A DNA stretch of 20,920 bases from a virus. Each line of letters starts with the position of its first letter. Within the stretch, counting starts at the first letter, position 1. Location: IMG/VR virus record IMGVR_UViG_3300045912_000183, positions 1-20,920 of that record. One strand, written 5' to 3'. Positions 2,614 through 18,478 of the stretch are shown here, one piece after another. Made by a program: the position numbers and the translations under genes. The notes under the pieces were generated by a model that worked only from the letters and a program-made list of their open reading frames with translations, was not told the DNA's origin and did not search any database.

Positions 2614-3010
2614 TCACCTCGACCTGCGGTTGATTGTAGCCCAGGCCGAGTATCTTCGCGCGTTGGGCGATGATCTTCAGGCACAGGTCTGCCGCGTGCC
2701 TGTCGCCGTTGTATGCCTGCGCCCAATACCGCCCCAGGAGCGCGTTGAGCCTTTTACACTCCTCGTCTACAAGCTCGTCATACTTCTCGGCCCGTTCCTC
2801 TTTCCACTCCTGCCTGATCGCCTTTACGTCCTTCGCGACCTGCCCGGCGCTCACACCCACGGCCCGGCCTATCTGTGCGTAGGTGCCGCCCGACAGAAGG
2901 AGCGTCGCCACCTGCCTGCGCCGCTCCTCAATCTCTGCCGCGTTGGCCGCCGCCTGCGGGTGACGCCCCTTCCCTCCCCCAGTCTTTGGGTTGGGCCTTT
3001 TACTACCCAT
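2432..3010 (-). CDS. terS: Terminase small subunit (TerS)
   Basis: DNA-recognition partner of TerL, 192 residues. After a basic, glycine-rich N-terminus (GGGKGRHPQA) comes a helix-turn-helix at about residues 43-65 (TYAQIGRAVGVSAGQVAKDV). A long helical oligomerisation region follows (RQEWKEERAEKYDELVDEECKRL and onward), then an acidic/hydrophobic tail that would contact TerL. The ATG at 3010 is chosen because it overlaps the stop of the ParB-methyltransferase gene (ATGGGTAG), which points to translational coupling; a longer in-frame extension to 3082 would lie wholly inside that upstream gene. Position directly before TerL supports the call. The family assignment rests on the helix-turn-helix plus context, since small terminases diverge strongly. 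Confidence 0.85.
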   Translation of the reverse strand: MGSKRPNPKTGGGKGRHPQAAANAAEIEERRRQVATLLLSGGTYAQIGRAVGVSAGQVAKDVKAIRQEWKEERAEKYDELVDEECKRLNALLGRYWAQAYNGDRHAADLCLKIIAQRAKILGLGYNQPQVEVNVNVYDPLEELERSFRSVLAARGLLGVVEEQDAGTAEVVGERLALPLPAEPVTTGEGSER

Positions 3011-4208
3011 CGACGCGCTCGGCCTTTTGCCCCGTGAGGCTCTCCCACCGTGCCACGATCGTGTCGCAATGCCTCGGCTCAAGCTCGGCCGCGTAGCACG
3101 CCCACCCCATCTGCTCGGCCGTTACGAGGGTCGAGCCGGAGCCGGCGAACGGATCGGCGACGGCGACGGGCTCGCCACTGCTCACCGTGAGGAGCTTCGC
3201 GAGCAGTTCCACCGGCTTCTGTGTGTCGTGCAGTTCGTTGCCTGTCCGCTTACACTGTATGACGTTGCCAGAGCCGCGCTTCGTGTCGAACGGATCGCGC
3301 ACGCGGCACCCGCACATAATGAGTTCGTGTTGGGCTCGCCACCCCTTGCCCATTCCAGGGTGCTCCTTGTCCCAGACGATCATCGAACGCACGCCGAAGC
3401 CTGCGCCCTCCATCACGTCAAAGAGCGGCACCCACATTCGCCAGTCGGTGAACACGTAAGCGATACCCGCCGGCCAGGTGCCGAGGGCTCCGCGAATGAG
3501 CGCCTGGAAGCCGCGCGTGGAGAGCGTGTCGTTGGCGATCTTCGGGTCGCCCTTCTTCTTGCGGTCGGTGTCCACGGAGCCGATCCGCCTGTCGCTCTCC
3601 TGCCAACCGCCCGAACAGTAGGGCGGATCGGTGAGCAAGACGAGGGGCGTGGCGTCGGCGAGCACGCGCGCCGCGAGGTGCTCATTCGTGCAGTCGCCGC
3701 ACCCGAGACGGTGCCGGCCCAGTTGCCACACCTCGCCCGTGTTCACGCGCTCCGGTGCCGCCACTTTCGGCTCATCCTGCACAACCACAGGCGTTTCGCC
3801 GATCTTCGCCAGGAGCTTCGAGAGGTCGTCTTCGTCCCACCCAGGAGGCATTGGGCCTTCGTCCGAGCACTCGCGCAGGAGCGACGCCAGGAGGGCGTCG
3901 TCAACCTCGCGAAGTTCGCCGATCCGATCGAAGGCCGCGAGGATACGGCGCTCGGTCGGCTCGTCAACGTCAATGACGCGCACCGGGATTGCCTCGTCGC
4001 CGGCTCGTGCCGCGAGGTGAGCACGGGCGTGGCCGTCAATGAGCCGGCCCGTGCGTCGGTTGAAGATCGGCACCGCGAGCCACCCGAACTCCTCGATCGA
4101 CGCGCGCAGGGCCTCCTGTTGCCGCTCCGGGTGCTTCCGCCAGTTGCGCGGGTTCGGCCGGAGCGTCTTCGGGTCGAGGTATTCGATAGTGAACAGTTGT
4201 TCGCTCAT
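3003..4208 (-). CDS. ParB-like domain fused to DNA methyltransferase
   Basis: A two-domain protein of 401 residues. Residues about 8-110 form a ParB/Srx-like domain, with the hallmark GWLAVPIFN (42-50) and RLIDGHARAHLAA (55-67). Residues about 155-395 form an N6-adenine or N4-cytosine DNA methyltransferase: catalytic DPPY (194-197) comes before the SAM-binding DPFAGSGST (352-360), the beta-class order, and HDTQKPVELL precedes the latter. Such fusions are frequent in phage packaging regions and are thought to modify phage DNA, giving protection from host restriction or marking DNA for packaging. The start ATG at 4208 overlaps the stop of the HAD gene (ATGA), and its own stop overlaps terS. The target sequence cannot be read from the protein; N6-adenine is the likelier chemistry with DPPY, but N4-cytosine is not excluded. 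Confidence 0.92.
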   Translation of the reverse strand: MSEQLFTIEYLDPKTLRPNPRNWRKHPERQQEALRASIEEFGWLAVPIFNRRTGRLIDGHARAHLAARAGDEAIPVRVIDVDEPTERRILAAFDRIGELREVDDALLASLLRECSDEGPMPPGWDEDDLSKLLAKIGETPVVVQDEPKVAAPERVNTGEVWQLGRHRLGCGDCTNEHLAARVLADATPLVLLTDPPYCSGGWQESDRRIGSVDTDRKKKGDPKIANDTLSTRGFQALIRGALGTWPAGIAYVFTDWRMWVPLFDVMEGAGFGVRSMIVWDKEHPGMGKGWRAQHELIMCGCRVRDPFDTKRGSGNVIQCKRTGNELHDTQKPVELLAKLLTVSSGEPVAVADPFAGSGSTLVTAEQMGWACYAAELEPRHCDTIVARWESLTGQKAERVDG

Positions 4209-4633
4209 TTCTCGTTCGGGCTCCTGTCGAACACCACGGCCCGCTCGTCGAGGAACTCCCCGGTGTTCGGTATCACTTGCCGGGCTCGATCGTCCCAAAG
4301 CTCGACCATCGCGTAATCCTTGTGGCATTGCACCGGCAGGGCTCGGCCGAGGTGCTCAAGGCACCACGCCTGGATGATCGCCTTCTGTGCCTCCACAGCC
4401 TTGTTGATACCCTCGGGCGCGACCGTAAGCACGGCCTCGGTAGGGGCGACGCGCGCCGTCACGATCCGCACGTCCCACCCCTCGGCGAGCTTCTCCTTCA
4501 CGCGGGCGACCATTCGCGGCACGGGCGCACCCACGGAGCCGTCCGCTCGCCACCCGTCGTAGCGGGCGAGGGTGCCGTCGAGGTCCACTCCGATCCAACC
4601 GCGAGGTCTGCCGCCTTCGTTGGGCGCTCTCAT
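4205..4633 (-). CDS. HAD-superfamily phosphatase
   Basis: 142 residues. It carries motif I DLDGTLA (17-23, nucleophile D17 and acid D19), motif II-like threonine in VRIVTAR (55-61), a lysine-bearing helix (NKAVEAQKAI, about 77-86), and the acidic motif IV LWDDRARQV (112-120). This arrangement resembles the short, cap-less HAD phosphatases of phages related to the phosphatase domain of polynucleotide kinase. Expected to be a cytoplasmic Mg-dependent phosphomonoesterase; the substrate, whether nucleotide or DNA 3' end, is unknown. The ATG at 4633 forms an ATGA overlap with the stop of the upstream 64-residue gene; an in-frame extension to 4666 is less likely. It is followed, also by ATGA, by the ParB-methyltransferase. 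Confidence 0.85.
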   Translation of the reverse strand: MRAPNEGGRPRGWIGVDLDGTLARYDGWRADGSVGAPVPRMVARVKEKLAEGWDVRIVTARVAPTEAVLTVAPEGINKAVEAQKAIIQAWCLEHLGRALPVQCHKDYAMVELWDDRARQVIPNTGEFLDERAVVFDRSPNEK

Positions 4634-6340: not shown

Positions 6341-7059
6341 ACGCCCTCGCCTCCTTTCCGGCGACGGGTGCGAGCGAGCACGCCGTCGTCTGTCACGTCC
6401 GGGCCTTCCCACCCGAGCCCTTCGCACAGGTCGCGCAGGCAAACATACGTTCGCCCCTCGACGACGACGGCCCTCGGCTTGAGCACCGTCTGGGTAACGC
6501 CCGTGAGGGTCGAAGCCACCTCGATCGTGCAGGGGATACGGGTGGAGGTGACAGGCGGGTTGTCGGCTCCGAGCTTCGTCTGGATACCTGCGAGCGCGTG
6601 AACGAAGTCGTCGAGGTCTTCGGCTCGCGGTGTCCGGCACCACGCGCGCACGGCGTCAAGCGGGAACCGTCGCCCAGGGCACGCCGTCGGGTGCCCCGGC
6701 AGGGTCACTTCCTTGTGGCCGACCACCTGCGCCTGCGGGTGTTCGTCGAGCCAACGGTCGAGGAGGTTGCCGAGTTGCTCCAGTTGCGCGTCGGTCGGGT
6801 AGGCCGTCTCGAAGTTCCCGACCAGGCAGACGTGGAGCTTGCCCCGGTTGTTCTTGAAGACGCCCGCGCCCTGCAAGGTCGTGAGCCGGCCCTGCTCCAG
6901 TTTGCCATCGGCACCACCGCGCCCGTTGCAAATGACGGCGTGGTAGCCAATATCCTCAAAGCCGCGCGCCTTGTGCTCGCGGCGGAACGCCTCGACGTTG
7001 CCGCCTGGCGTCGCCGAGTGATGAATGACGAGGTGCGTCACCGCACCGAGTGGCTTCAT
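6337..7059 (-). CDS. Endolysin: N-acetylmuramoyl-L-alanine amidase
   Basis: 240 residues. Residues 1-150 form an Amidase_2/PGRP-like zinc amidase: THLVIHHSATPGG (8-20, zinc histidine), GYHAVI (38-43), VCLVGNF (77-83), VGHKEV (113-118, histidine) and TACPG (125-129, zinc cysteine). It cleaves the bond between muramic acid and the stem peptide to lyse the host at the end of infection. Residues about 165-235 form a second small domain (STRIPCTIEVAS, VVVEGRTYVCLRDLCEGLGW) resembling the stalk domain of copper amine oxidase N-terminal type, likely a wall-binding or accessory module. There is no signal peptide, so export would need a holin. The start ATG at 7059 overlaps the upstream stop (ATGA). 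Confidence 0.93.
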   Translation of the reverse strand: MKPLGAVTHLVIHHSATPGGNVEAFRREHKARGFEDIGYHAVICNGRGGADGKLEQGRLTTLQGAGVFKNNRGKLHVCLVGNFETAYPTDAQLEQLGNLLDRWLDEHPQAQVVGHKEVTLPGHPTACPGRRFPLDAVRAWCRTPRAEDLDDFVHALAGIQTKLGADNPPVTSTRIPCTIEVASTLTGVTQTVLKPRAVVVEGRTYVCLRDLCEGLGWEGPDVTDDGVLARTRRRKGGEGV

Positions 7060-7664
7060 TCGTCTGTCTCCATCGCCTCGGCCGTGAGGGTAGTCTCGGC
7101 CTCGAAGGCGAACAGGCCGGCGACACGTTGCTGGCAGAAAGCGAGCGCCCTCGCCAGGTTGCCACGTCGCCCTTCGAGGAGCTTCGCCTTCACCTCAAGC
7201 CTGGCGATCCGATTGCCGATTGCCGTGATACGCGCCTGGAGTTCCTGCCGCTCGGCCTTGAGGGCGTCAATCTCACCGAGCGTGTCGGCACGGCGCTCCT
7301 CAAGGGCCTCGATCGCGTCTTCCTGCCGGCTCATCCACGCCACGGCGTCTTGCGCCTGCTTGAGCGTCGCGGTGATTTCGCGGAGTTGCCGGAAGGAGAC
7401 GGGCTCCACGGCTCCGATCGTCGCGAGGATCGTGTCGGCTTCCTTGAGGTCGCTCGCCTGTTCGTCGGCCGGCAGTTCGGTGTATGGCGTATCCATCTGT
7501 CGCCGCCACCGCTCCACGAGCCGATCGGGAATGGCCGTCACCGTGCGGCAGTCGCCTGTCTCCTCGTCGAAAATGTCGAACTCTTCGCACTTGAGGAGGA
7601 GGTAGCTCATCCACCCGGACCAGGCACGGTGAGCGTAGTCGGCGAGCTTCTCGCGGGTCGTCAC
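7056..7664 (-). CDS. Hypothetical phage protein with C-terminal coiled coil
   Basis: 202 residues from a GTG at 7664 that overlaps the upstream stop (GTGA). The N-terminal 75 residues contain AHRAWSGWMSYLLLK and RWRRQMDTPYTELPADEQASD, a WSGWM...MxTxYxxL pattern I associate with uncharacterised phage proteins of about 100 residues. Residues about 85-190 are a long, charged, heptad-like helix (QEDAIEALEERRADTLGEID, RLEVKAKLLEGRRGN), predicted coiled coil. It lies in the lysis cluster between the amidase and another helical unknown. Function not known; it may be a dimer or scaffold. Confidence 0.75.
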   Translation of the reverse strand: MTTREKLADYAHRAWSGWMSYLLLKCEEFDIFDEETGDCRTVTAIPDRLVERWRRQMDTPYTELPADEQASDLKEADTILATIGAVEPVSFRQLREITATLKQAQDAVAWMSRQEDAIEALEERRADTLGEIDALKAERQELQARITAIGNRIARLEVKAKLLEGRRGNLARALAFCQQRVAGLFAFEAETTLTAEAMETDE

Positions 7665-10373: not shown

Positions 10374-10871
10374 TCACCACCGCTTCCCGCCGTGCCGCGC
10401 CGGGCGCGTCTGGTTGTAGCGGTGCTTCGCGATGATCGCCTCGCCCAGGTCTACCCCGAGCGCCTCGGCCAGGTCGGCAATGCGTATCACCGCGTCAGCA
10501 AGCTCGATCGCGAGCCCCTCCGGCTTCTCACAGCCTCGCCACCACTCGTGGCACCCGTGAAGCTCGAAGGGCTCACGCACGGCCTCGCCGCCGCGATCGT
10601 GGTTCACCACATACACCGTGTTGAGCGGCAGGCCGTTCCCGCGAGCCTCCTCGAAGGCTTCGCACACCTCCGAGACGCTCAACAACAAGGTCGCCGGCAG
10701 ACGAGCCTCGACGGCGCTCTCGGCCACCCTCGCGCCCATATCCGGCCAGAAGTCCTTCGCCCTGGCGAGCGCGTGACTTCTCCTCTGCAAAGCCGAGAAG
10801 GCCGCCAGGATGTCCTGCTCCTCCTCCTCGACGTATTCCGCCTGCTTCGTCAGTTCGTCGCGGTTCATCAT
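10374..10871 (-). CDS. MazG-like nucleotide pyrophosphohydrolase
   Basis: 165 residues. The all-alpha NTP-PPase metal motif is seen as SEVCEAFEE (67-75) and, later, IELADAVIRIADL (122-134), i.e. the ExxE...ExxD pattern. The end KHRYNQTRPARHGGKRW matches the usual MazG-like tail with Tyr-Asn and Gly-Gly-Lys. Such enzymes hydrolyse (d)NTPs to the monophosphate and pyrophosphate, or in some phages (p)ppGpp. The insertion at 76-118, with HGCHEWW, is longer than usual. The start is ATG 10871 or 10868; the first forms an ATGA overlap with the upstream stop, and GGAGAAGG precedes both. It fits with the dCMP deaminase and ThyX as part of dNTP-pool control. Confidence 0.85.
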   Translation of the reverse strand: MMNRDELTKQAEYVEEEEQDILAAFSALQRRSHALARAKDFWPDMGARVAESAVEARLPATLLLSVSEVCEAFEEARGNGLPLNTVYVVNHDRGGEAVREPFELHGCHEWWRGCEKPEGLAIELADAVIRIADLAEALGVDLGEAIIAKHRYNQTRPARHGGKRW

Positions 10872-11272
10872 CCTTCTCCGAGCCCGGCGACCTGTTGCCG
10901 GAACTCCACGAACGCCTCGGGCTCCGCGAACCACTGCCCGCGTTGCCACACCTCATCGGCCATCACCGCCGCGAGGTCGCCCAACGTCTCGTGCCACTGG
11001 GCGAGCCGCACGGCCTCGGCCGCGTCGTCGTCGATCGTCACGACGGCGACGCCGATACGGCCGCTCTCGTTGTCAACGAGGAGCCGGAAGCTCTCCTCCG
11101 CGCCGTCGTGCTTGAGCACCACGCGCACGTTCTCCGCCGTCGGTCGGCGACTGTGCGCCGCTGTCACGGCCGCCGCCACTGTCGCGCCCGGACGGAGCCC
11201 GAGCGTCTTCGCCACGGCGGCCTCGGCGATGAAGTTCTCAAGCTCTCGCTCTCGGCCCTTCCACTTGCTCAT
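10868..11272 (-). CDS. Hypothetical protein (134 aa)
   Basis: Not recognised. A charged N-terminal helix (KWKGRERELENFIAEAAVAK), a mixed alpha/beta middle with strands VRVVLKHD, FRLLVDN and IGVAVVTID, and an acidic C-terminal helix with tryptophans (ETLGDLAAVMADEVWQRGQW). There is no signal, membrane span or cysteine pattern. ATG at 11272 overlaps the upstream stop (ATGA), and its own stop overlaps the MazG-like gene, so it belongs to the same translation unit. Confidence 0.72.
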   Translation of the reverse strand: MSKWKGRERELENFIAEAAVAKTLGLRPGATVAAAVTAAHSRRPTAENVRVVLKHDGAEESFRLLVDNESGRIGVAVVTIDDDAAEAVRLAQWHETLGDLAAVMADEVWQRGQWFAEPEAFVEFRQQVAGLGEG

Positions 11273-11679
11273 TCGATGATACCCTCCGGTTCGTAATGAA
11301 CTGTCGTGGTCGTCACAATAGCACGCACGTCATATCGCGCGGGATCGCCTTTCGGTGCATATACTCGCGTGGCTCCATCATAGCCAGTCTTGACTTCGAC
11401 ACGAAGAATAGGGCCGTCGCCCCGAAAGGTGAGTAGATCACATTCGGCGTGTGGTCCGACGCTACGAAACACCGAGTAACCACGCTGAAGCAAATCGACG
11501 CACGCGCGCAGTTCACTCAAAGCGCCAACCTGCGACCGTTTGATCCCCAGTTCGGCACTCATTGAGCCCGTGCCGTATCGCCCCGGCTGGCTTGAGGGGC
11601 GACACGACACGTCGCAGTATTTCTGATCGCGCCGTGTCGGTTGAAACTTGCGCCCACAAGTCTCACACAGTTTCGTCAT
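11269..11679 (-). CDS. FCS-type zinc finger fused to PD-(D/E)XK nuclease domain
   Basis: 136 residues with two parts. N-terminal C5-x2-C8-x13-C22-x3-C26 (CETCGRKFQPTRRDQKYCDVSC region) is an FCS/MYM-like zinc finger. From residue 53, ALSELRACVDLLQRGYSVF (E56), AECDLL (D81) and ILRVEVKTGY (E95-x-K97) form the core of a PD-(D/E)XK nuclease of the resolvase/very-short-patch type. Zinc finger plus nuclease suggests sequence- or structure-guided DNA cleavage. The ATG at 11679 follows GAGAGGGA at five bases. G+C is lower than in its neighbours, as expected for a recent insertion such as a homing-type or moron gene, but no intron or flanking repeat was seen. Confidence 0.8.
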   Translation of the reverse strand: MTKLCETCGRKFQPTRRDQKYCDVSCRPSSQPGRYGTGSMSAELGIKRSQVGALSELRACVDLLQRGYSVFRSVGPHAECDLLTFRGDGPILRVEVKTGYDGATRVYAPKGDPARYDVRAIVTTTTVHYEPEGIIE

Positions 11680-11713
11680 TGAAGTCCCTCTCAAGCCTCT
11701 GTGGGCCTTTCTG

Positions 11714-12346
11714 CTAGTCGCGTGGAGGTTCGATACCCCAGGTGCGTCTCTCGGTCACGTTGACGCCCGAGCCGCCGCACTTCGGGCACGTCTGCTGCTT
11801 CCAGCGAGCACTCCCGAGGTAGCGGTTCTCCTCCATCACCTCGCCCCGGCCGCCGCAGACGTAGCACCGCTCGCTCACGACCTCCTCGCCGACGATCGAG
11901 AGGGAGGGCGTCTCGCGGCCTTCGTAGTCGAGCACGTCGCCCGACGACGCCGCGAGGTCGGCCAGGAACACGTCGCGAGCCTCCGACGGGTAGCCCTCAA
12001 CGAACCGCACCGCCTGCACTCCTGCCGCCAGGAGCGCCTTGAGGCACGCCAGGCACGGCTCGCACGTCACGTAGGCCGTGGTGCCCTCGGTCGAGACGCC
12101 GTTCCGTGAAGCCTGGGCTATGGCGTTCACCTCGGCGTGGATCGTCCGCACGCAGTGGCCGTCGTGCATAAGGCACTCGGCCTCGTCACAATGCGGAGCG
12201 CCGGGCAGGGAGCCATTGTAGCCCGTCGCGACGATATGCCCGGCCGGCGACACGAGCACGCAGCCAACCTTCCGCCGTGTGCAAGTCGCCCGCAGGGCCG
12301 CCGCCTGGGCGAGCAGAAGGAAGTAGGTCTCCTTCGTTAGTCTCAT
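11714..12346 (-). CDS. dCMP deaminase with C-terminal zinc ribbon
   Basis: 210 residues. The catalytic zinc site is HAE (70-72, proton-shuttling Glu72) with PCLAC (97-101). C53, C58 and C65 (CDEAEC, GHC) fit the second structural zinc site of phage-type dCMP deaminases; TGYNGSLPGAPHC is also typical. It converts dCMP to dUMP, the substrate of ThyX encoded at 15114-16064. The usual family length is 150-180; here about 50 residues are added, with CYVCGG (161-166) and CPKCGG (187-192), a DnaJ-like four-cysteine ribbon. ATG at 12346 overlaps the upstream stop and is preceded by GGAGGTGG. Confidence 0.92.
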   Translation of the reverse strand: MRLTKETYFLLLAQAAALRATCTRRKVGCVLVSPAGHIVATGYNGSLPGAPHCDEAECLMHDGHCVRTIHAEVNAIAQASRNGVSTEGTTAYVTCEPCLACLKALLAAGVQAVRFVEGYPSEARDVFLADLAASSGDVLDYEGRETPSLSIVGEEVVSERCYVCGGRGEVMEENRYLGSARWKQQTCPKCGGSGVNVTERRTWGIEPPRD

Positions 12347-13569: not shown

Positions 13570-14556
13570 TCACACGTCGCAAAAACGCGCGAACGTATGG
13601 CCGAGGTCGTGCTTCCACTCGTCGTAACCGTCGATCGCCGACGAGGGGATACGCCCCACCTGGCTCCACGTCACGTCGTGGAAGTCCGAGGAGTTCCACG
13701 CCGAGCGGTAGAGGTCGGCCGCGCGTTCGCCGACGCAGAAGACGTGCCCGAGGTGGCCGCGTCTCTGCCCGACGAACTCCGCGAACCGCGCTGGTGTCGC
13801 GAAGGTGGAGGCATAGGTGTAGGTGCCCTCCCACCACCGCAGACCGATCGCACCGAAGGCCGCCCAAAGCGTGTCGGCCTCCTCACCGCGCGAGAAAGGG
13901 AGGTCCGGGTCGCTGCCGCACTCGTCCTTCGGCGGAGCCTCGGCCGGCGGAGCGTCGCCGAGCACCAGGAACTTCGCGGTCGGCGAGCCGAGCACGAGCG
14001 ACGCGGGCCGCCACGCGCGCCGCAGATAGCTCCGGCCGGGCGCGTAATACTGCTCGCGCATAAAGAGGTCGAGGTCGCCGGGCTCCTGCACCTCGGGCAA
14101 GGTGAGCACCGCCGTGGGGAGGGTCGTCACCCGACCGCACGCGCCCGGCGTCACCTGCTCGTGATACCGCTCGACCAGGGCCGTGATGTTGGGCAGGTTC
14201 CGCCCATACATCTCCTCTTCGCCCCACCGCGAGTAGATCGCCTCCGGCCTGTCGGTCATTACCACCTGGAGAGCGCCGCAGGTGTGGAGCATAAGCTCGC
14301 ACAACTGCCACTCCCGGTAGGTCATATCCGGCCCGTTCCGGTAGACGTGACCATACGACCAGTCGGACAGGTGCCACCTGTCGAGGATCATCGCCGGGTG
14401 GCTATCGGCGATTTGCCAGGCATAGTAGCGGTAGCACGGGGCGATCTTGCCTGGGTAAGTGAAGTGGCGGTAAGAGAAGCCGCCATACTTCCCACCCACG
14501 AGGCTCCGCGCTACCGTCGTCTTGCCGCACCGATCGACGCCTTCGAGCACGATCAT
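13570..14556 (-). CDS. Thymidylate-kinase-like P-loop kinase with C-terminal UDG-like domain
   Basis: 328 residues, about 120 longer than a normal dTMP kinase. The N-terminal part has IVLEGVDRCGKTT (Walker A, 6-14), LDRWHLSDWSYGHVY (58-72, the DR motif that positions the nucleotide) and VVMTDRPEAIYSRW. It would phosphorylate dTMP or a related (possibly modified) deoxynucleotide. From about residue 195, FLVLGDAPPAE, LPFSRGEEADTLWAAFGAIG, TYTYAST and HVFCVGERAADLYRSAW follow the order GD/EAPG - PF..G..L - N - lGe.A of the uracil-DNA-glycosylase superfamily fold; the key residues are degenerate. GGAGG eight bases before the ATG at 14556 fixes the start. The C-terminal assignment is by motif order only. 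Confidence 0.82.
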   Translation of the reverse strand: MIVLEGVDRCGKTTVARSLVGGKYGGFSYRHFTYPGKIAPCYRYYAWQIADSHPAMILDRWHLSDWSYGHVYRNGPDMTYREWQLCELMLHTCGALQVVMTDRPEAIYSRWGEEEMYGRNLPNITALVERYHEQVTPGACGRVTTLPTAVLTLPEVQEPGDLDLFMREQYYAPGRSYLRRAWRPASLVLGSPTAKFLVLGDAPPAEAPPKDECGSDPDLPFSRGEEADTLWAAFGAIGLRWWEGTYTYASTFATPARFAEFVGQRRGHLGHVFCVGERAADLYRSAWNSSDFHDVTWSQVGRIPSSAIDGYDEWKHDLGHTFARFCDV

Positions 14557-14560
14557 CGGC

Positions 14561-14815
14561 CTATCCTCCGAAGAACGGCGTGGGCACGCCGCAGAGTGTG
14601 AGTATCCAGGTGATAACGGCCGCCGGCACGAGCAGGCCGCCGCAGATGGCACCAGCCACCACGTCGGCATACCAGGGCACGCCCTTGCCGGCGACCGTGT
14701 AGAGCACGTAATCGAACAGACGGCCGTCGATCGTCGCGCCCAGGCACACCCAGGCGACCATCAACAGGCAACCCGCCGTCATTTCGGCGTCGGCGTTGCT
14801 CCTCCGTCGGGTCAT
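14561..14815 (-). CDS. Small two-span membrane protein
   Basis: 84 residues. Two hydrophobic segments, about 12-28 (MTAGCLLMVAWVCLGAT) and about 51-75 (DVVAGAICGGLLVPAAVITWILTLC), joined by a polar loop with aromatic residues. Preceded by a basic N-terminus (TRRRS), so the N-terminus is probably inside. ATG at 14815 overlaps the upstream stop (ATGA). It stands far from the lysis block, amid nucleotide-metabolism genes; an inner-membrane or superinfection-exclusion role is possible, without proof. Confidence 0.68.
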   Translation of the reverse strand: MTRRRSNADAEMTAGCLLMVAWVCLGATIDGRLFDYVLYTVAGKGVPWYADVVAGAICGGLLVPAAVITWILTLCGVPTPFFGG

Positions 14816-15117
14816 TCGAGTTCCTCCTTCTGCCGGTCACGGTGCCGGCGGCTTGCTTCGCGGTTCTTGCACGACGGCGAGCAGTAGACCTGGTTGAGCC
14901 GGCCAGGATGGAAGATCGAGCCGCACACGAGGCACTTGCGCCGACCTCGACCGCACCAGGCGCACGGCTTGAGCAGTTCACGCACAAGCCGAGGTATCAT
15001 TTCCTGGGCGAAAGAAATGAGGTCGCGCGAGGCATACGGTCCCCTGCCTGTCTCGACACGATCCACAATCGCGTCGAGGTCGGCCCCTGCCAGTCCTACT
15101 TGCTCGCCGTTGCTCAT
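14812..15117 (-). CDS. FCS-type zinc-finger protein (101 aa)
   Basis: 101 residues. An N-terminal acidic helix, then C52-x2-C55, then C62-x2-C65-x13-C79-x3-C83 (CLVCGSIFHPGRLNQVYCSPSC region), an FCS/MYM-like zinc finger followed by a basic helix (KNREASRRHRDRQKEE). Probably binds nucleic acid. The second cluster has exactly the same cysteine spacing as the zinc finger of the nuclease at 11269-11679. ATGA overlaps at both ends, with ThyX upstream and the membrane protein downstream. Confidence 0.78.
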   Translation of the reverse strand: MSNGEQVGLAGADLDAIVDRVETGRGPYASRDLISFAQEMIPRLVRELLKPCAWCGRGRRKCLVCGSIFHPGRLNQVYCSPSCKNREASRRHRDRQKEELE

Positions 15118-16064
15118 CGCTTGTATGCTTCGTCGTAGGGTATCACCGCGTAATAGCGCCAGTCGTGGGCGTAGCGGTCGCGGTGCTCATTGCCGGCGAT
15201 GATCTTCCGCAGTTGCGCCCAACCACGGAAGTTGCCGCAGACGCGCCGGGCGTCCGGGCGCATTTCCCACTGCTCGTCGAGCGCCGTCGCAACGTGCTCG
15301 AAGGGCGACCAGTGGCCGCTCTCGCGGAGCCGATCCGCGAGTGCGAGGTCGGCGTCGAGGTCGCGCCGGCCGTCGTGCGTGAGATACGACACCCTCGCAC
15401 ACCGCGCCGCCGAGACACGCGACACGCCCTCAATCCGCTCCTTCCAAGAGTGCGGCCACCTATCGCCGGCCGCCTCCCAGTCGGTGTCGTCGATCAAGGG
15501 CAGATGCCACCCACCGGACGGGTGAACGGAGGGCTCCGAGGTGTGATACGCCTCGGCCGCCAGGTTGGCGATCTTCTGCATTTCCGGTTGTGCGTCCGGG
15601 TGACACCGGAGCCAGAAGAAGTTCGCCCACTCCGTCGCCGACGCTATGACGGTGTGCCAAAGGAAGGGCTCCAAGAGCCGGTTTGCCGTCTGCTTGTGAA
15701 CCTCCAGGCCGGCAAGTAGCTCGGCCGCCTGCACCGCTCGGTTGCACGCCCAGAGCCAATGCTCGCGCGCTCTCTCGCCCTCGCACGTCTCAAGCCAGGT
15801 GCCGGCGCTCATTCCCTTCTGGTTCCGGCCGAACGCCTCGGGCACGAACGGATCGACCTTGACGCGCTCAAGGAGCTTCGCCGTCGGTATCGCCCGAGAC
15901 GAGGCCGAGTTCCGCGAGAGTAGACGGTGAGTGTTGAACTCGGCGAGGATGAAGCGAGGGAAGGTGAGTTCCATCGTCACGAGCCGGCACCTCGCCGGCC
16001 CGAGACTGTCGGCGAGCACTCTCGCCCGGTAGTTCCCGTCGCGTAGATCGACCGCGCACTCCAT
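15114..16064 (-). CDS. thyX: Flavin-dependent thymidylate synthase ThyX
   Basis: 316 residues. ThyX methylates dUMP to dTMP using methylene-tetrahydrofolate and FAD. The signature is seen as THRLLSRNSASSRAIP (45-60): the canonical RHR-x7-S pattern with the first Arg replaced by Thr, a variant I associate with phage forms. SPFEHVATA and FRGWAQLRK, typical of the C-terminal half, are present, as is an SNR-like RDRYAHDWRYY end. It is longer than bacterial ThyX (about 230-250). AGGAGG lies nine bases before the ATG at 16064, and a longer in-frame extension to 16268 would run into the upstream gene. Together with dCMP deaminase and the kinase it forms a dCMP to dTDP route. Confidence 0.93.
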   Translation of the reverse strand: MECAVDLRDGNYRARVLADSLGPARCRLVTMELTFPRFILAEFNTHRLLSRNSASSRAIPTAKLLERVKVDPFVPEAFGRNQKGMSAGTWLETCEGERAREHWLWACNRAVQAAELLAGLEVHKQTANRLLEPFLWHTVIASATEWANFFWLRCHPDAQPEMQKIANLAAEAYHTSEPSVHPSGGWHLPLIDDTDWEAAGDRWPHSWKERIEGVSRVSAARCARVSYLTHDGRRDLDADLALADRLRESGHWSPFEHVATALDEQWEMRPDARRVCGNFRGWAQLRKIIAGNEHRDRYAHDWRYYAVIPYDEAYKR

Positions 16065-16108
16065 CGCGCGTCTTCCTCCTGCGCTCACACGGAGCGCGAC
16101 TAGGTGCC

Positions 16109-16348
16109 TCAACAAGCCTCGACGAGCACCGGCTCCGGCGGCACTGGTCCGGCCGGTGTGCCTGCTGTTCCATCCTCGAAGGGCTTCGATCGCCTGGCAA
16201 TCTCTTCGCCGATCGCCTTGTGAATATCCTCGCACGGCCAGGGCTCGTTCGGCCGTCTGCGCTTCCATTCCTCACGATCGTGGAACAGTTCGCCCGAGGC
16301 CGTTTCGAGGAACTTCACGAGGTCAACCAGGCGAGGGTCGCGCTTCAT
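16109..16348 (-). CDS. Small hypothetical protein (79 aa)
   Basis: Unrecognised. An N-terminal helical half with RLVDLVKFLETASGELFHD, a middle EEWKRRRPNEPWPCEDIHKA, and a proline-rich disordered tail (GTPAGPVPPEPVL). ATG at 16348 overlaps the upstream stop (ATGA). It ends 44 bases before thyX; this gap contains a small six-base hairpin (16081-16097) and the thyX ribosome site. Confidence 0.65.
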   Translation of the reverse strand: MKRDPRLVDLVKFLETASGELFHDREEWKRRRPNEPWPCEDIHKAIGEEIARRSKPFEDGTAGTPAGPVPPEPVLVEAC

Positions 16349-17332: not shown

Positions 17333-18385
17333 CTACTCCTCGTCGCCGATCTGCTCGATAATCCGAGCACCGACGCGCACCGCCACCGGGCGAGGCATAC
17401 GAGCGGTCACGAGGTCGAAACCCTCGGCCCAGGCACCGGCTCCGGCCTGGAGCCGGCGGCCGAGGTCGCCGGGCAAAGCGGTGTGGGTCGCCAGGCGCGT
17501 CACCGCGTTGAGCATACCCCACTCGGTCGGTTCCGGCTCCGCCCGGTAGGCGTGCAGGAGGTCGTCGTGGTGCCGGCGAGGGATACCGAGCGAGCGCGCA
17601 CGCTCCAGAAGCGCCTCCTCCGGGTCGCCCTCGACGGCCGTCTCACTCATCCGACGGGCCTGGTTGAGAATGTTCTCATACGCGCCGAGAGCGCCGACGA
17701 TACCCTCTTGGAGCCACACCGCCTGGTGCCGGCGCGTGCCCTCGGCCTTCCGGTTCCACCGGAACTCGCCAGCCGTCCGGGTCATTCCGTTGAGGCACAC
17801 GAGCCGGCGGAGATAAAGCTCCACCTCGGTCGTGTCGCCATAGTCCTGCCGCACACAGATACCGGCCTGGAGCACGTCGCCCACCTTACGGGTGACGGGT
17901 TGCTGAATGTCAGTGAGGAGCTTCATCACGAGGCCGCTCTCGGTCGCGAACGCGCCCTCAATGTTCACCTCGCCGAGTGCCTGGGTGATCGTGTCGTAAG
18001 CCACCTGGGCCGTCTCGGAGTAAGCGAGCATTTCGCGCGCCGACGGCAGGAGGTCGGTGAGCCGGCCGTCGTGAAGGACGAGCCCAACCTCGCCGTCGTT
18101 GTGCGCCCTCACGCGGTCGTTGATAACCGACGCTTGGAGCCCGAGCGGTAGCTTCTGCACGAACTCGGTGGGGAACGTCACCTTGCCACCGAGGTCGGCG
18201 AGCGCCTGCGTCGTCACCGGCATTTCGCCGAGGTCGGCCTGGTGTGCGATCATCACGCCGTCGCGAGCGAAGAACTCCAGGGAGTGGAGCGGCACCGGCG
18301 CGAAGCTCGGTCGCGGCCACTCACCCCACGGCTGGTTGCGGTCGATTTCCACCTTCAGTTCGCGAGCGGTGATCGTCGTAGCCAT
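17333..18385 (-). CDS. Conserved-looking phage protein, DUF932-like
   Basis: 350 residues, alpha/beta. Features recalling the DUF932 / phage-plasmid-like group are a central strand-rich part (LHSLEFFARDGVMIAH, KVTFPTEFVQKLPLGLQ, GEVGLVLHDGRL) and RRLVCLNGMTRTAGEFRWN, similar to the VCSNGL segment of that family, followed by a long helical C-terminus (EGIVGALGAYENILNQARRM). DUF932 proteins are frequent near phage recombination or replication genes; their role is unknown. ATG at 18385 has AAAGGGA eight bases upstream. It follows a 147-base leader with a promoter candidate and hairpin, so it probably begins a transcription unit and is likely well expressed. Confidence 0.72.
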   Translation of the reverse strand: MATTITARELKVEIDRNQPWGEWPRPSFAPVPLHSLEFFARDGVMIAHQADLGEMPVTTQALADLGGKVTFPTEFVQKLPLGLQASVINDRVRAHNDGEVGLVLHDGRLTDLLPSAREMLAYSETAQVAYDTITQALGEVNIEGAFATESGLVMKLLTDIQQPVTRKVGDVLQAGICVRQDYGDTTEVELYLRRLVCLNGMTRTAGEFRWNRKAEGTRRHQAVWLQEGIVGALGAYENILNQARRMSETAVEGDPEEALLERARSLGIPRRHHDDLLHAYRAEPEPTEWGMLNAVTRLATHTALPGDLGRRLQAGAGAWAEGFDLVTARMPRPVAVRVGARIIEQIGDEE

Positions 18386-18428
18386 TGACGTGTTCCCTTT
18401 CTGGTCGTGCCTCGCCCTCTGAAAAGGT

Positions 18429-18452
18429 GGCCGGAGGGTTTCCCCTCCGGCC
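18429..18452 (-). terminator. GAAA-loop hairpin, terminator or leader attenuator
   Basis: On the minus strand GGCCGGAGGG pairs perfectly with CCCTCCGGCC (10 bases) around a GAAA tetraloop. After five bases comes TTTT (18425-18422). It is downstream of the nuclease stop (18533) but also downstream of the promoter candidate at 18479-18507, so it lies in the leader of the next gene. Either a terminator for the upstream unit, or an attenuator/stabiliser of the leader. Confidence 0.55.
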
Positions 18453-18478
18453 CGGAGGGAGAGAGTGAGCATTGCCCT

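Follow-up and report, generated by a model that had tools for sequence, protein, structure and literature searches.

The window, by which we mean the whole stretch of DNA analysed here, is an entire virus record of 20,920 bases with a GC content of 65.9%. It is probably a fragment, because the DnaE frame at the contig end (19704-20879, with its start 41 bases from that end) matches only the later part of the polymerase profile (phrog_405, positions 673-913 of 1190). The gene under study, P0002, has the coordinates given for it in an earlier note on this DNA and lies on the minus strand. A GGAGGA is located at 14564-14569, 7 bases 5' of the ATG (spacing judged by eye), and GC3 is 0.86 over residues 1-170 and 0.89 over residues 171-328. 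The main parts of the gene and its relevant neighbours are as follows.

13570-14556, minus strand: P0002, whole gene, 328 amino acids plus stop, ATG at 14556
14047-14556, minus strand: P-loop dNMP kinase part, residues 1-170 with linker (phrog_761 match; identity to SunnyD)
14515-14541, minus strand: Walker A, GVDRCGKTT, residues 6-14 (from the sequence; G6, G11 and K12 identical throughout 15 aligned sequences)
14377-14382, minus strand: Asp59-Arg60, the dNMP-kinase DR motif (identical throughout the same 15 sequences)
13573-14007, minus strand: domain like the uracil-DNA-glycosylase (UDG) superfamily, residues 184-328 (hhalign with controls; AlphaFold2 model and fold searches)
15114-16268, minus strand: ThyX, flavin-dependent thymidylate synthase (Thy1 E 9.2e-15; phrog_85 E 6.3e-69, residues 81-364)
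11714-12346, minus strand: dCMP deaminase with a C-terminal Cys-rich extension (PF00383 E 5.8e-24)
10374-10949, minus strand: MazG-like pyrophosphatase (phrog_3301 E 4.7e-29; no Pfam match)

The proximity of ThyX, dCMP deaminase and a MazG-like enzyme to P0002, as previously noticed, is borne out by the Thy1, PF00383 and phrog_3301 matches. ThyX has a canonical appearance by eye; its true start is uncertain, and the first part of the open reading frame may be untranslated. The CxxC-rich extension of the deaminase resembles DnaJ_CXXCXGXG (E 3.3e-6, 27.7 bits, under the cut-off of 32.7) and also matches Q-like antitermination PHROGs. Three further minus-strand genes of the window were noted. The protein of 3003-4328 joins a ParB-like N-terminus to an N4/N6 DNA methyltransferase (phrog_498 E 3.6e-84, phrog_620 E 1.1e-24, PF01555 E 4.3e-15). 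The product of 11269-11694 begins like a zinc finger and continues with a stretch resembling a PD-(D/E)XK endonuclease (PF11645 E 1.3e-5, just under cut-off; phrog_5018 E 6e-9). A DUF932-like protein is encoded at 17333-18472 (phrog_1362 E 4.8e-8; PF06067 E 0.0019, under cut-off), and no relative of it was confirmed in IMG/VR.

Residues 1 to about 150 of P0002 are a divergent P-loop dNMP kinase. The PHROGs thymidylate kinase family phrog_761 matches residues 1-134 with an E-value of 2.5e-6, and neither Pfam PF02223 Thymidylate_kin (12.4 bits; cut-off 27) nor TIGR00041 (14.8 bits; cut-off 83.25) reaches its threshold. The kinase assignment of the earlier note holds, but by the Pfam and phrog_761 scores this half is not as ordinary as described there. 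A tblastn search of 50,697 phage records with P0002 (E up to 0.01) returned three records, all from Curtobacterium phages, the best being SunnyD gp33, a thymidylate kinase with 36% identity over residues 1-82. As in the window, a MazG-like gene is found nearby (adjoining, in SunnyD); unlike P0002, gp33 is only 156 amino acids long and has no UDG-like domain. Searches of IMG/VR and GTDB contigs with short exact peptide patterns confirmed no close relative of P0002, and distant ones would escape such patterns. A plasmid search gave a single match, at E 0.3 and in the kinase part, and the C-terminal part alone retrieved only four records at E 7. In records holding relatives of the window ThyX or DnaE, P0002 was found in 0 of 20 and alignment A2 in 0 of 14, counts that are uninformative for want of a positive control.

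The architecture of P0002 is nevertheless shared by a wider family. A typed UDG consensus searched against phage records led to gp315 of Bacillus phage G (NC_023719), a protein of 331 amino acids annotated as thymidylate kinase, in which PF03167 is recognized at residues 189-318 (E 1.5e-12). A tblastn search with gp315 led to Actinomycetia phage DSL-LC01 (kinase WJZ48531), and a scan of IMG/VR to the loci L098 (57% identical, PF03167 E 2.1e-13) and L099. Relatives of the DSL-LC01 protein occur at 65 IMG/VR loci and comprise 42 distinct proteins of 331-341 amino acids. The full-length HMM of this DSL family extends over residues 4-315 of gp315 (59.1 bits; 61.2 for the whole protein), and on P0002 it recognizes the kinase part only (13.8 bits). 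The plain UDG HMM gives no signal on DSL-LC01 (0.7 bits); it is the family profile alone that reveals the domain, matching the UDG profile over 123 columns (probability 94, E 1.4e-7). P0002 has the architecture of this family, a kinase followed by a UDG-like domain in about 330 residues. It shares with gp315 the same domains in the same order and a dCMP deaminase two genes away, the two kinase parts being 24% identical, and with the DSL-LC01 kinase and its 65 IMG/VR relatives the architecture and the order of the GD, LPF, LGR.A and xP elements. A further candidate, H72/L101, appeared to be a fusion in tblastn and proved to be a stand-alone UDG. The main text of the paper on DSL-LC01 (PMC10611076) names neither a thymidylate kinase or synthase nor a deaminase or glycosylase.

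The kinase tree is poorly resolved, with kinases that carry the UDG-like domain interleaved with those that lack it. A separate origin of the P0002 fusion is no more than conceivable: P0002 groups with the domain-less kinases of SunnyD and Kurnik (80/87), on long branches. UDG-like domains are also found C-terminal on DnaE-type phage polymerase frames (20 ORFs, 17 distinct), at loci including L088, L066, L083, L057, L079, L086, L081, L084, L060 and L087. The UDG-like add-on of SPO1 gp31, phiLo 9qhs and PaBG gp205 is likewise carried by a polymerase, whereas in P0002 it is carried by a dNMP kinase.

The four UDG motifs previously reported for the C-terminal half (GDAPP, LPFSRG, TYAST, GERAADL) are all present where they had been placed, and a fifth, RIPSSAI, follows them. 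Positions were assigned with alignment A5, which consists of 45 trimmed C-domains (P0002, 42 DSL-family members, phage G and L098) and was picked among several sets for its motif line-up; in MAFFT, P0002, the DSL family, phage G and the polymerase UDGs were never all well aligned together, and the middle part of phage G is misaligned in A5. Numbers of T. thermophilus (Tth) UDG were counted from the alignment of 1ui0.

13945-13959, minus strand: GDAPP, residues 200-204, motif A equivalent (alignment A5; Asp201 at Tth Glu41)
13894-13902, minus strand: LPF, residues 219-221 (Phe221 at Tth Phe54; F in 42/42 DSL-family domains)
13804-13818, minus strand: TYAST, residues 247-251 (Ala249/Ser250 at Tth Asn80)
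13711-13731, minus strand: GERAADL, residues 276-282 (LGxxA strand-helix turn of UDGs)
13633-13653, minus strand: RIPSSAI, residues 302-308 (UDG His-Pro-Ser place; Ile303 for Tth His155)

Conventional searches miss this domain. PF03167 gives no match to the whole record at E up to 10, and a Pfam search of P0002 detects no UDG domain; phage G gp315 and L098 reach the PF03167 cut-off, unlike P0002. An HMM of 13 phage UDGs scores 5.2 bits on P0002 and is beaten by 1 of 1000 shuffles of its own sequence. With hhalign, residues 171-328 were compared as a single sequence with a profile of 32 sequences (13 phage UDGs, 17 distinct phage DnaE-frame domains, phage G and L098). The score was 29.6 (probability 33), within the range of 21.8-40.5 covered by 42 single DSL-family domains. 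It was reached by 0 of 500 shuffles of the same sequence and by 0 of 300 ORFs sampled from six-frame translations and free of UDG HMM hits, the maximum being 23.4 in both sets. The tails of the UDG-less kinases of the Gordonia phages Forza and GMA2 scored 12.3 and 9.9, respectively. Against other profiles of the family, the score of P0002 was equalled by 1 of 100 shuffles (DSL family), by 38 of 100 (two-sequence phage G/L098 profile) and by 0 of 100 (joint fusion profile).

A structural model of residues 184-328 was built with AlphaFold2 from the 45 rows of A5, in which P0002 is 14-24% identical to its relatives. The model has a pLDDT of 67.3 and a pTM of 0.66, with pLDDT below 50 at residues 184-186 and 204-219; a single-sequence model of full-length P0002 was useless (pLDDT 31). 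Foldseek returned 610 matches at E up to 10, of which one, a UDG, lay at or below 0.001 (5.2e-4). Rows 1-36 consist of UDGs and of complexes in which a UDG is included, with TM-scores of 0.41-0.53, and from row 37 onwards unrelated folds are mixed in. In VIA-align, which aligned 999 chains pre-chosen by Foldseek and in which rows less than 1 Z apart count as tied, all 50 matches listed belong to the UDG superfamily or to a polymerase with such a domain. The best among the matches listed is UdgX of M. smegmatis (6l6s; Z 11.7, rmsd 3.1, 131 residues), together with the phiLo polymerase (Z 11.1), the family-4 UDG of T. thermophilus (1ui1; Z 10.6, rmsd 3.2) and SMUG/MUG/TDG (Z 8.3-9.5). The fold search of BFVD gave no match at E up to 0.001 and placed phage G Gp315 second (E 5e-3). 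A C-terminal fold unrelated to UDG, which would have spoken against the earlier proposal, is thus not what Foldseek and VIA-align find for the predicted structure, although the model gives no independent check on homology because it was built from an alignment of UDG-like relatives, phage G included.

An unrelated Rossmann-like fold, in which a chance glycine-rich first strand was combined with an alignment-led structure prediction, is very unlikely in our judgement. Its attraction is that the hhalign match covers 55 of 158 residues and the first three motifs, that the HMMER scores are near noise, and that the AlphaFold2 alignment held only UDG-like relatives picked for motif line-up. It does not account for an hhalign score that none of the shuffles or other ORFs reached, or for the later motifs being in order as well, and gp315, of the same architecture and near-equal length, has its UDG domain called by Pfam itself. 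On the profile score and the model we conclude that residues about 184-328 of P0002 are a UDG-superfamily-like domain, as far as a predicted structure can indicate.

The pocket of this domain is altered. The motif A acid is present, with the conservative change of Tth Glu41 to Asp201, and so is Phe221, the counterpart of Phe54, which serves in base stacking. At Tth Asn80, the uracil-binding Asn, all 42 DSL-family domains have N and P0002 has A, and the His is replaced by Ile303. In lacking the uracil-pocket Asn and His, and in being fused to a kinase, P0002 differs from family-4 UDG and UdgX. Gly276 and Pro304 are invariant in 45/45 rows of A5 and in 62/62 rows of alignment A4. The hhalign controls, the predicted fold and the replaced Asn and His together uphold the previous description of P0002 as a kinase joined to a degenerate UDG-superfamily-like domain. 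Since the residues that hold uracil are replaced, P0002 is probably not a glycosylase, judging from its sequence.

Other members of the family differ at the same positions. The DSL family, unlike P0002, retains both residues: the motif Asp, the Phe and the Asn are found in 42/42 domains and the His is nearly invariant, so that DSL-type relatives may still be catalytic. In gp315 and L098 motif A has Gln in place of the Asp of P0002, while TN and His-Pro are retained, and L099, 235 amino acids in all, keeps only a remnant of the domain, as might be expected if its catalysis can be done without. Among the DnaE-linked domains, those of L081, L087 and L071 have Asn-Pro for His-Pro. This variation across P0002, phage G, L098, L099 and the DnaE-linked domains suggests a UDG fold that is retained while its catalytic residues drift. 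It would also suit an inert leftover of gene fusion, a domain that serves folding or the holding of subunits only, as would the largely lost domain of L099 and the interleaving of kinases with and without the domain in the poorly resolved tree. We regard such a leftover as rather unlikely, given that Asp, Phe and Asn do not vary among the 42 distinct DSL-family proteins and the His hardly does, and that the domain is found in phages as dissimilar as Bacillus phage G and DSL-LC01.

The genomic context of the relatives was examined at 69 loci, many of them near-identical (phage G, L098, L099, DSL-LC01 and 65 of the DSL family). A dCMP deaminase is present at 67, a thymidylate-synthase-like gene at 68 and both at 66. 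No synthase was seen at L098, and no deaminase at L128 and L143, where the stretches stop within about 530 bases of the synthase gene or inside it. In the DSL-LC01 family a cytosine-type synthase comes after the kinase, and at 63 of the 65 IMG/VR loci a dCMP deaminase does so too. None of the 69 loci has a match to the window ThyX. In 43 of 44 distinct synthase-like ORFs the position of E. coli Asn177 is taken by Asp, the exception being the truncated ORF of L143. Asp at this site is described as switching specificity to dCMP and as marking contigs with modified cytosine (PMC8670742), and the same residue is Asp179 of T4 dCMP hydroxymethylase (PMC6400193).

For the synthase-like proteins of phage G and DSL-LC01 the best solved match listed is the CMP 5-hydroxymethylase MilA (E 3.2e-28 and 2.2e-18, respectively), which ranks above thymidylate synthases among the matches listed. 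The T4 enzyme is not among the 60 matches listed for either protein, and the label hydroxymethylase therefore rests on MilA and the Asp. The cytosine-type Asp is present both in phage G gp319, annotated as thymidylate synthase (L095:5455-6501), and in the corresponding protein of L099 (L099:8510-9496). Two genes away from gp315, on the other strand, phage G encodes gp313, annotated as alpha-glucosyltransferase, and by its gene content this phage may carry modified cytosine. In L099, the dCMP deaminase frame (6693-7649) contains a long insert of intein-like appearance (by eye). Forza, GMA2 and Kurnik also have an Asp-type synthase (by eye), yet their kinases lack the UDG-like domain, which is therefore optional in this setting.

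The Asp-type synthase and the MilA match point to modified cytosine, not hypermodified thymine, as the context of the relatives. The P0002 locus differs from it: the deaminase is there, but ThyX is found instead of an Asp-type synthase, whereas the synthase-like neighbour of gp315 is hydroxymethylase-like and not ThyX. A two-sequence profile of the relatives' genes found no synthase- or hydroxymethylase-like gene in the 20.9 kb record. The presence of ThyX and the lack of a hit with this profile mean that the cytosine reading cannot be transferred to the window, although missing genes may lie outside it because the record is probably a fragment. The clustering of kinase, dCMP deaminase, ThyX and MazG-like genes had suggested that P0002 might act as a kinase or sensor in a hypermodified-thymine pathway. 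This part of the earlier proposal is not supported, and we consider it extremely unlikely: the window has no gene matching the synthase profile, its ThyX is canonical by eye, and the synthase-like gene linked to the fusion in relatives is of the cytosine type. The other part of that proposal, a domain that senses or binds a base, may hold.

The same context could accommodate an editing kinase, in which wrong monophosphates (dUMP, hydroxymethyl-dUMP) are destroyed before they are charged, the UDG-like domain being, now or formerly, the N-glycosidase responsible. Hydroxymethyl-dUMP would arise by deamination, the domain would be active in DSL-type proteins, and that of P0002 would have decayed or changed its substrate. 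To our knowledge, the substrate of known UDGs is DNA and not monophosphates, which counts against this. In its favour are the Asp, Phe, Asn and nearly constant His of the 42 DSL-family proteins, the pairing of dCMP deaminase and synthase-like gene at 66/69 loci with the cytosine Asp in 43/44, from which deaminated products could arise, and UdgX, the best structural match listed, which was solved with dUMP (6ajp, according to its title). There are also precedents: a phage dNMP N-glycosidase of the NDT fold that is joined to a Dut-like pool enzyme (PMC12884076) and human DNPH1, which hydrolyses hydroxymethyl-dUMP (PMC10483697). Against these stand the missing Asn and His of P0002, the Gln at motif A in phage G and L098, the mere remnant in L099, and the domain-less kinases of Forza, GMA2 and Kurnik that adjoin the same kind of synthase. 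We find editing decidedly unlikely overall, and it is for P0002 itself that a glycosidase is least likely. A broader proposal, that these proteins form a class of dNMP kinases of modified-cytosine phages in which a second site, active or for reading, derives from a UDG, and of which P0002 would be a divergent member with an altered pocket, is hardly likely. If true, it would place proofreading at the nucleotide-kinase step, for example against hydroxymethyl-dUMP from deaminated hydroxymethyl-dCMP.

The explanation that we tentatively favour, with a little less than even confidence, is that P0002 is a two-domain pyrimidine-pathway enzyme whose C-terminal domain is a non-catalytic module that binds a base or nucleotide and tunes or docks the kinase. 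The N-terminal P-loop domain would phosphorylate a pyrimidine dNMP, in the window most likely dTMP supplied by ThyX and dCMP deaminase. We infer that the UDG fold has lost the cutting of glycosidic bonds with the replacement of the uracil-holding Asn and His, and that the appended domain may bind a base, a nucleotide, a DNA end or a partner and thereby tune or place the kinase. Several findings count against this explanation: P0002 has no confirmed homologue, Pfam and the plain UDG HMM miss the domain, and the model was built on relatives of 14-24% identity and has one Foldseek match at E up to 0.001. In addition, the DSL family retains Asp, Phe, Asn and His, so its members are perhaps catalytic, and the retention of Asp201 and Phe221 in P0002 counts against it too, as a merely structural domain needs neither.

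The pairing of a UDG domain with a phage DNA polymerase is already in print (PMC7412058). For the pairing with a nucleotide kinase we found no account in the open-licence literature, judged mostly by titles and abstracts. Phage G, DSL-LC01 and the window all encode the fusion, and uncultivated phages add 42 distinct proteins with it. Its recurrence, together with the deaminase and the synthase-like gene close by at 66 of the relatives' 69 loci, leads to the prediction that virions of phage G-like and DSL-like phages would contain modified cytosine, and that a base-reading or base-removing step would be coupled to dNMP phosphorylation. As phage G has a named Bacillus host, both predictions could be tested there.
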